Source of the DNA: an uncultured Phycisphaerales bacterium
GTDB lineage: Bacteria > Planctomycetota > Phycisphaerae > WQYP01
Assembly (NCBI GenBank): GCA_903845195.1
Contig: CAIMWO010000040.1
Span: 1 to 64,000, forward strand
DNA: 64,000 nucleotides
Direction: 5' to 3'
The first letter of the stretch is position 1. Every line of letters starts with the position of its first letter. Positions 29,393 through 62,818 of the stretch are shown one piece after another. The notes under the pieces are model-generated. The model searched no databases, had not been told where the DNA came from, and saw nothing but the letters and a program-made list of their open reading frames with translations. Made by a program: the position numbers and the translations under genes.

Positions 29393-29540
29393 GGTGGGCT
29401 CCTTTCGTGAAACCTGTTGTTGGAGAAATGTTTGTGGCCATGGTAATCCGCGCGCGAATAAATGACGAGAACTCTCTGCTGAATTCTGCCGACAGCCATG
29501 ACTGGAGATGAGTAGTTTGCCGTTCTACTTCCGGCTAAAG

Positions 29541-29611
29541 CTGGGGGACTAGGATTCGAACCTAGACAAACAGAACCAAAATCTGCTGTGCTACCATTAC
29601 ACCATCCCCCA
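29541..29611 (-). tRNA. tRNA-Gln (anticodon TTG)
   Basis: Reverse strand TGGGGGATGGTGTAATGGTAGCACAGCAGATTTTGGTTCTGTTTGTCTAGGTTCGAATCCTAGTCCCCCAG; 7-bp acceptor, D arm, anticodon TTG, TTCGAATC T loop. Confidence 0.95.
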
Positions 29612-59817: not shown

Positions 59818-59955
59818 TCACCACCTCACCATGATTCTAGGTGAGACCACCGCGTTTAGACAGTATCGGCGCATCGCCCCAGCCTTCCGTGACGCCCCGC
59901 CGCCACTCCGGTAAAATGCCCGTCTGCCGTTTCAGTGGGAAACATGAGGATATCA

Positions 59956-61152
59956 ATGGCCGACGCACGCCACGAAAATACCCGCGCACCCGTTCCTCGC
60001 GCAACCGCAGCGCAAGACCGCCAATTCTGGATCGGCGTAGTCGATCGCCTCGCCCGACCCGTCCTCACCGCCTTCTCCCGCGGCCAATTCAAAAAAACGT
60101 TCCCCGTGCAAAGCGGCGGCAAGGATGATCGCAGCAAGTTCGCACACCTCGAAGCCCTCGGCCGCCTGCTCACCGGCATCGCGCCATGGCTCGAGACCGG
60201 CACCTCCGCCCAAGACTCTTCCGACGAAGCGAAGTGTCGCACAGAATTCGCCGCCCTGGCGCGCCACGCTATCGCCGCCGGCACCGATCCCCAATCCCCT
60301 GATTACCTCAACTTCGAAACCTTCGGCCAACCCCTCGTCGACGCCGCCTTCCTCGCCCACGCGCTGCTCCGCGCCCCCGTCGAACTGTGGCACAAACTCG
60401 ATGCCCCGGTCCGCACCCGCGTGATTGATGCACTCAAACTCACCCGCAAAACCACGCCCCCCATGTGCAATTGGCTCCTCTTCAGCGCCATCATCGAAGC
60501 CTTCCTCTTTTCCGTCGGCCACGAGTGGCAACCCGAAACCGTCGACCTCGCCCTGCAAAAACACGAGGAATGGTACAAAGGCGACGGCGCCTATGGCGAC
60601 GGCCCGCACTTCCACTGGGACTACTACAACTCCTTCGTCATCCAGCCCATGCTCATCGACGTGCTGGCCATCCTCGGCGATCAGCGGCCCGACTGGCAGC
60701 AAATGAAATCCCCCGTCCTCCACCGCGCCCAACGTTTCGCCGCCGTCCAGGAACGGCTCATTTCCCCCGAAGGAACTTTCCCACCCCTCGGTCGATCCCT
60801 CGTCTATCGCTTCGGCGCTTTCCAACTCCTGGGCCAGATCGCCCTGCGTCACGAATTGCCGCCCGACATTTCCCCCAGCCAGGTGCGCTGCGCCCTCACC
60901 GCCGTCATTCGCCGCACGATCGCCGCCGAAGGCACCTTTGATGCCGAGGGATTTCTACGCATCGGCTTCTGCGGCCACCAGCTCGGCGTCGCCGAACCGT
61001 ACATCAGCACCGGCAGCCTCTACCTCTGCGCTGCAGGTCTGCTGCCCCTGGGCCTGCCCGCGAGCGATCCTTTCTGGTCAGATCCTTATGCCGAATGGAC
61101 CAGCCGCCGCATCTGGTCCGGCCAGGACATGCCCGCCGATCACGCAATCTGA
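59956..61152 (+). CDS. DUF2264 domain protein
   Basis: CNWLLFSAIIEAFLFSVG, WYKGDGAYGDGPHFHWDYYNSFVIQPMLIDVL, GTFPPLGRSLVYRFGAFQLL. Confidence 0.9.
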   Translation: MADARHENTRAPVPRATAAQDRQFWIGVVDRLARPVLTAFSRGQFKKTFPVQSGGKDDRSKFAHLEALGRLLTGIAPWLETGTSAQDSSDEAKCRTEFAALARHAIAAGTDPQSPDYLNFETFGQPLVDAAFLAHALLRAPVELWHKLDAPVRTRVIDALKLTRKTTPPMCNWLLFSAIIEAFLFSVGHEWQPETVDLALQKHEEWYKGDGAYGDGPHFHWDYYNSFVIQPMLIDVLAILGDQRPDWQQMKSPVLHRAQRFAAVQERLISPEGTFPPLGRSLVYRFGAFQLLGQIALRHELPPDISPSQVRCALTAVIRRTIAAEGTFDAEGFLRIGFCGHQLGVAEPYISTGSLYLCAAGLLPLGLPASDPFWSDPYAEWTSRRIWSGQDMPADHAI

Positions 61153-61234: not shown

Positions 61235-61265
61235 TTGACTTTTCTCCGGCCTTTTCTGGTATAAG
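61235..61265 (+). promoter_or_regulatory. sigma70-like promoter, TTGACT-N19-TATAAG with extended -10 (TGG)
   Basis: TTGACT at 61235, TGGTATAAG at 61257. Confidence 0.55.
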
Positions 61266-61336
61266 ATATAGATAAGAAGGAGGCCTCCTCAAGCTGCACC
61301 AACGCTGGTCGATAACACAAGTAGGAGGAGATAAAC

Positions 61337-61531
61337 ATGATGAACCTTAGTGAATATCTTCGCGGACAGTTGCAGGAAGCCTGCAGTGCCGAAAACAAGT
61401 GGTATTGCAGCCAGTACTTCGGCTACGAAATCACCGATCCCAAGACGCTCCTCGAGTACTACATCAAACACGGCGGCACGCAGCACTTCGCCCAGCAACA
61501 CCAAAAAGAACTCGAGTGCTCCAGCCGCTGA
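61337..61531 (+). CDS. 64-aa small protein
   Basis: MMNLSEYLRGQLQEACSAENKWYCSQYFGYEITDPKTLLEYYIKHGGTQHFAQQHQKELECSSR; strong SD taggaggag. Confidence 0.75.
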   Translation: MMNLSEYLRGQLQEACSAENKWYCSQYFGYEITDPKTLLEYYIKHGGTQHFAQQHQKELECSSR

Positions 61532-61603: not shown

Positions 61604-62638
61604 TCATGACCGAGGCGCATCAGTATTCGTCTGATCCGCTGTCAGCGAATTCCACGTCTGAAATCCAGCATAAACATTTTCCGGCCGCGCGCCAGGCCCG
61701 AATTCCATCTGCGCGATGACCCCGCCATTGCGGCACAGCGCGCGGTGAACATCTCTGACCGCCTGCGCAACTTCATCCGTGGTTCCCCGAACTAGCAGAT
61801 GTTGCCGATCCAGCTCCCCCCAGAACGTCAGCTTCCCCGCAAACCGGCCCACCTCTTCCACCCCCATGCAGAAGAGCTGCGAATTCAGCGCATCGAGTCC
61901 CAACTCGATCAGGTCTGGAATGATGTCGAGGATGTACCCGTCAGAGTGCATAAAGATTTTCTTGTGATGGCGGTGCGCCAGCTCGATGTAGTCCCGATAC
62001 AGCGGCTTGAAGATCGCCCGCCACACCCGCGGCGAAATCAACAGTGAACGCTGGGCGCCCCAATCATCCATGAACATCAGGGCATCAACCTCCGTGCGCG
62101 CCCAGATCTCCAGCTTCTTCAGATAAAACTGATGCAGCCGCTGGATCAGCGCCATCAACGCCGGCTCTTCGGCCGCCAGGTCGAGCATCGCATTTTCCGA
62201 GCCGCGCAGAAATTGAACCCGCTCCCACGGCCGCGGACAGCAACCCGCCAGCACAAACTGTTCCGTGCCGCGGCAAAAGCCATTCACCGCGTCTACATCC
62301 ACGCTGAGCAATTCCACCGGCTCGCGGACCTTCGCCAGATCCTCCCACTCGGCGATCAGCGGCCGCTTGATCTCCCCGATCACGCCTTGCTGCACGTTGG
62401 TAAAGGTGCAGCCCCATTCGTCGCGGTATTCGCCCACTGCATAAGGATCGCCGCTGACACCCGTCGGCGTTTTCAAAAAAGACGGGGCCGTGCGGATATC
62501 AGGAGGAAAGTCCGCATGAATCTTCGCCAGTTCCTGCGGATATCGAGCCGTCGCCCACGGAAGAGTCCAAAGCTGCCGCGGAATCCGCCCCGGCCCGTCA
62601 AATTCCAGCGTCTTCAGGACAATCTCGCGCGAGGTCAT
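61604..62638 (-). CDS. uroporphyrinogen decarboxylase/methyltransferase family protein
   Basis: LIQRLHQFYLKKLEIWARTEVDALMFMDDWGAQRSLLISPRVWRAIFKPLYRDYIELAHRHHKKIFMHSDGYI..LNSQLFCM. Confidence 0.82.
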   Translation of the reverse strand: MTSREIVLKTLEFDGPGRIPRQLWTLPWATARYPQELAKIHADFPPDIRTAPSFLKTPTGVSGDPYAVGEYRDEWGCTFTNVQQGVIGEIKRPLIAEWEDLAKVREPVELLSVDVDAVNGFCRGTEQFVLAGCCPRPWERVQFLRGSENAMLDLAAEEPALMALIQRLHQFYLKKLEIWARTEVDALMFMDDWGAQRSLLISPRVWRAIFKPLYRDYIELAHRHHKKIFMHSDGYILDIIPDLIELGLDALNSQLFCMGVEEVGRFAGKLTFWGELDRQHLLVRGTTDEVAQAVRDVHRALCRNGGVIAQMEFGPGARPENVYAGFQTWNSLTADQTNTDAPRS

Positions 62639-62818
62639 GGCAAGTGCCTTTTCGTAGAGGGATGAAGAATCGCAATGAAAGCCACTGCAGGATAATCGTT
62701 CCGCCACGAATTGAATAATCCGCCCATGACCCTAGTAACGTATTGCAAACCAGTAGCGTTCCTCCCTGTTCCGGTTCTCTTTGTGGGTTCTTCCAGCAAA
62801 TTGGTCGGGCCTGTTTTT

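Follow-up and report, generated by a model that had tools for sequence, protein, structure and literature searches.

Leaders in which the Shine-Dalgarno (SD) sequence is masked have been described, among them ROSE-like RNA thermometers (PMC3669281) and the translational riboswitch platforms of the SAM-I class treated in work on Xanthomonas (PMC7270179). The leader analyzed here precedes a gene for a 64-aa protein in a 64,000-nt stretch of DNA from an uncultured Phycisphaerales bacterium, hereafter the window. It shares with the two systems an anti-SD strand within the 5' leader, which here is predicted to pair with the ribosome-binding site. It differs from them in having no aptamer, Rfam match, conserved hairpin or predicted temperature response, and in being made up by one 6-bp helix that closes a long loop. 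If it worked as a switch, it would be a further case in which the SD is masked, from a lineage with few strong SDs. The features of the locus are as follows.

61235-61240, plus strand: TTGACT, -35-like hexamer, read directly
61257-61265, plus strand: TGGTATAAG, extended -10-like element TGG-TATAAG, read directly
61278-61289, plus strand: AGGAGGCCTCCT, perfect 12-nt palindrome in the leader, read directly
61285-61290, plus strand: CUCCUC, predicted anti-SD strand, predicted to pair with 61325-61330
61323-61330, plus strand: AGGAGGAG, Shine-Dalgarno sequence, read directly; opening energy 6.3 kcal/mol
61337-61531, plus strand: 64-aa ORF with an N-x-W-Y-C-S...P..L..Y core and four predicted helices (from relatives, alignment and model)
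61350-61365, plus strand: start of the coding region, competing for the SD mainly through UAUCUUC at 61356-61362 (from folding)

The locus is probably a single-gene unit with its own promoter, encoding a member of a small, unnamed family of helical proteins, in which masking of the SD is constitutive and modest at most. A sigma-70-like promoter would give rise to a leader of ~65 nt, and a strong SD would then direct translation of the 64-aa, all-helical protein. The SD (AGGAGG at 61323-61328, within TAGGAGGAG) ahead of the ATG at 61337, and the ORF of 64 codons starting there, are both found where the initial annotation placed them. The promoter had been described as TTGACT-N19-TGGTATAAG. Both elements are present, but the gap to TGGTATAAG is of 16 nt, and it is the -10 hexamer TATAAG that lies 19 nt from TTGACT. 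A 19-nt spacer is long for sigma-70; because of this spacer, and of a -10 ending in G, the pair was not listed in an ordinary sigma-70 promoter scan (spacers of 16-18 nt). Such pairs are rare in this GC-rich genome: sites of the type TTGAC[ACT]-N15-20-TATAA[TG] are two in the 269 kb sampled, one being the 61235 pair, and TTGAC-N17-TGGTATAAG, allowing up to one mismatch, occurs at a single site in the whole 4.6-Mb assembly. By these motifs, a sigma-70-like promoter specific to the 64-aa gene is plausible. Transcription is predicted to start at ~61272, which would place the palindrome at about +7 to +18. The ORF is flanked upstream by a gene for a DUF2264 protein (59935-61152), downstream by a gene on the other strand for a URO-D-like, weakly MtaA-like protein (61604-62707). 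A terminator-like stem with a T-rich tail can be drawn on the minus strand at 61273-61291; such stems are no commoner than in shuffled sequences.

The palindrome AGGAGGCCTCCT was correctly reported as perfect over its 12 nt. Perfect palindromes of this length are found 22 times in the window, vs. ~16 expected at 4^-6 per position. The symmetry of the sequence, and its location directly after the -10, would suit a DNA operator (about +7 to +18) recognized by a dimeric repressor, and a palindrome without a loop is better fitted to a DNA site than to an RNA hairpin. Against this stand the number of such palindromes in the window, the lack of an adjoining regulator gene, and the finding that AGGAGGCCTCCT has no second exact copy genome-wide, one copy with a single mismatch being located elsewhere. 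An operator family serving a regulon is thus unlikely, the palindrome being unique in the genome, and an operator for this gene is itself quite unlikely.

In RNA starting at ~61272, CUCCUC (61285-61290) is predicted to pair with GAGGAG (61325-61330), one or two bases off the register initially proposed. The probability of this pairing varies with the 3' end of the RNA, being 0.98 when this lies at 61345, 0.91 at 61365, 0.07-0.10 at 61380, 0.80-0.88 at 61400 and ~0.4 at 61450. The initial annotation had the CCTCCT half of the palindrome pairing either with its own AGGAGG or with the true SD, so that the two pairings could switch translation. The second arm is supported by the predictions for short transcripts, in the shifted register; the first is not, the hairpin of the palindrome reaching 4 bp at most (probability 0-0.17), because a perfect palindrome has no loop. 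The SD is also predicted to pair with the start of the coding region (61350-61365), with probabilities up to 0.63 (0.61-0.63 for RNA ending at 61380). Both the anti-SD strand and the coding region cover the SD, and hence do not make up an on/off pair.

A true translational switch, in which CUCCUC holds the SD off and the on-state partner is its own AGGAGG, the first codons, a protein or another RNA, is unlikely. In its favor are the strong masking predicted when the RNA stops at 61345 or 61365, the competitor in codons 7-9 that prevails in RNA ending at 61380, and the drop in the cost of opening the SD, from 6.3 to 2.9 kcal/mol, upon replacement of CCTCCT in silico. Set against these, besides the weak self-hairpin, is the ordinary character of the fold. 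The leader is not more stable than its dinucleotide shuffles (z +0.7 for 61268-61380, and -0.9, +0.3 and -0.4 for three segments of different extent), the SD is masked as strongly in 13% of mononucleotide and 19% of dinucleotide shuffled leaders, and among 30 genes with an SD in the 269-kb sample of the genome, 10 have one that is as costly to open, or costlier. No temperature response of the SD was seen in silico between 10 and 55 C, the mean unpaired probability staying at 0.22-0.26, and an RNA thermometer was accordingly rejected. A scan of the leader against Rfam, at gathering and at permissive thresholds, gave no match. Among the traits of an SD-sequestering switch, a leader strand pairing with the SD is present, while an SD-freeing alternative of comparable stability, and conservation of the pairing in the three distant relatives, are absent.

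Strands of this type also arise by chance. Of random 51-nt stretches drawn from the window, 2.6% contain a 6-mer complementary to the SD, compared with 3.7% of dinucleotide shuffles of this leader, and a 6-nt SD complement was found in one of 31 other SD genes sampled. A number of such leaders is therefore expected by chance in a whole genome; mildly unusual is solely the location of the SD complement inside a perfect palindrome, together with a second AGGAGG. Genome base rates refer to 269 kb taken as stretches, with ORFs called by a simple procedure rather than by a trained gene finder. Few genes of this bacterium seem to carry a strong SD, AGGAG or GGAGG being in SD position in 31 of 185 long ORFs (window plus stretches L021-L031).

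Searches for the 64-aa protein identified homologues, the absence of which would have spoken against the initial annotation. Two Phycisphaerae MAGs from a different family, and a single virus-like contig, encode relatives that are 38-50% identical. The first MAG (G120) carries a 111-aa ORF (L005:1327-1662, minus strand; 44% identity, E 5e-11), the second (G165) a 95-aa ORF (L006:1495-1782, plus strand; 42% identity, E 4e-10). In both, the domain is present in two tandem copies within one ORF; the second is the shorter of the two, with the C-terminal GGA..FA part missing. The third relative, 79 aa long and 44% identical, is encoded at L018:2959-3198 by the IMG/VR contig 3300025316_000027 (44.9 kb; IMGVR_UViG_3300025316_000027). 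All share the core N-[RK]-W-Y-C-S...P..L..Y, and N, W, Y, C, S, P, L and Y are invariant in the alignment. Judged from sequence, the 64-aa ORF is a real gene. The G120 and G165 ORFs differ at 26, 24 and 48 first, second and third codon positions, respectively, over 87 codons; since third positions show about double the differences of either other position, the gene is real and constrained as a protein. Other candidate relatives were set aside: matches in G189 (E 0.009, inside a frame of 1170 aa) and G367 (17 residues) as chance, and also a plasmid tblastn match on Shewanella secE/nusG (E 0.1).

The statement that the protein has no recognisable family applies to profile and sequence searches against Pfam, NCBIfam, PHROGs, PADLOC and PDB, in which no match was above cut-off, but must be revised in the light of the relatives found. 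The latter are likewise devoid of Pfam, NCBIfam, PHROGs or PADLOC families above cut-off. The N-R-W-Y-x-S helix of one relative has a weak likeness to the C-terminal segment of DUF4032 (PF13224; E 0.02, 15 bits). The score is however below the 23.8-bit cut-off, ~24 residues are covered, and the window protein itself is unmatched. PvuII and polyubiquitin matches in PDB are at chance level. AlphaFold predicts helices at residues 4-15, 18-28, 35-45 and 49-62 of the window protein (pLDDT 80.6), and the same helix order, with an extra short N-terminal helix, in the phage-like relative (pLDDT 80.4); both models have a pTM of 0.57-0.60 and few sequences behind them. The models suggest a compact four-helix fold. 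No match at E<=0.001 was obtained when the models were compared by Foldseek with PDB and BFVD, and assignment of a function by fold was rejected, as neither solved nor viral structures matched. From size and predicted fold, an accessory adaptor or binding role may be guessed; four members being known, any statement on function is weak. If the family is as described, it represents a small, conserved, Cys-containing target.

Neither AGGAGG nor CCTCC is found in the 110 nt upstream of the start codon in any of the three relatives (G120, G165, phage-like), and the CCTCCT strand, whose conservation the initial annotation had made decisive, is thus missing from all of them. The sole leader fragment, a CTCCT, lies ahead of the phage-like relative, where no SD-like word is present. 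Genomes of relatives of the same family contain just 18-31-nt pieces of leader DNA, at chance level. The relatives being distant, the absence of the arrangement weighs only moderately against a switch; covariation cannot be claimed, and distant relatives would be compatible with a young element in this genome. In 2.9 million viral contigs, AGGAGGCCTCCT-N25-50-AGGAGG has 10 matches. One features an ATG at SD distance, opening a frame of 29 codons, and three are GGAGG-rich repeats. None is clearly a gene leader, a result which counts against a switch and led us to reject the idea of a widely used leader motif.

The first AGGAGG is a perfect SD hexamer within the leader, and might act as a standby or decoy ribosome site, or serve a leader peptide. 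This is highly improbable, as no ATG, GTG or TTG lies at usable distance downstream, which led to rejection of the leader peptide, and the hexamer is not common to the relatives.

As a whole, what the initial annotation observed is partly confirmed, and its interpretation partly supported. A three-way switch is poorly supported, being superfluous for what is seen and contradicted in its self-hairpin arm; alternative pairing as a control of translation is not supported, given a fold no stabler than shuffles and a level of masking ordinary for SD genes of this genome. At best, the leader mechanism is a modest, ordinary masking of the SD. In the single-gene unit that we favor, CUCCUC would partly mask the SD in nascent RNA until it is displaced by ribosomes or by the first codons pairing with the SD instead, and the leader would set a basal translation rate rather than act as a dedicated switch.

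The family appears to be sporadic in Phycisphaerae genomes, and is represented in one phage-like element. A search of 27 other genomes from the same family and order, and of 391 others sampled across the phylum, did not recover the 64-aa protein; within the class, the family is present in 3 of 397 genomes, source genome included. Neighbours differ at each chromosomal locus (window, G120, G165); the DUF2264/URO-D-like pair of the window is not shared by the other two, and assignment of a function by neighbours was rejected. The GC3 of the gene (0.72) is between those of its neighbours (0.76 and 0.70), hence GC3 gives no compositional sign of recent transfer. The sporadic occurrence, the lack of a fixed neighbourhood and the copy on a virus-like contig point to a mobile accessory gene, probably spread by horizontal transfer.

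The 79-aa relative has tRNA-Leu and tRNA-Arg on its two sides, as part of a cluster of five tRNA genes, and HNH endonuclease genes close by. It is thus placed like the small accessory proteins found near phage tRNA/HNH clusters. In contrast, the other three members are lone chromosomal genes, with no adjoining phage genes seen. The contig encodes tRNAs, several HNH endonuclease-like ORFs and a head-closure/endonuclease-like protein. No match to TerL_ATPase (PF03354) was obtained on it, and the case for its being viral therefore depends on IMG/VR and on its HNH, tRNA and connector content. If the assignment is true, the family connects a phage-like element with the Phycisphaerae, a class about whose phages little is known. 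A broader picture, in which a mobile helical family with the WYCS core, single or doubled, circulates among planctomycetes and their phages, and has here come under a newly arisen SD/anti-SD/SD control, with the anti-SD strand and the first codons as alternative partners of the SD, is very doubtful. The window itself has a single tRNA gene, tRNA-Gln (TTG), on the minus strand at 29540-29611, which is also its only Rfam match.
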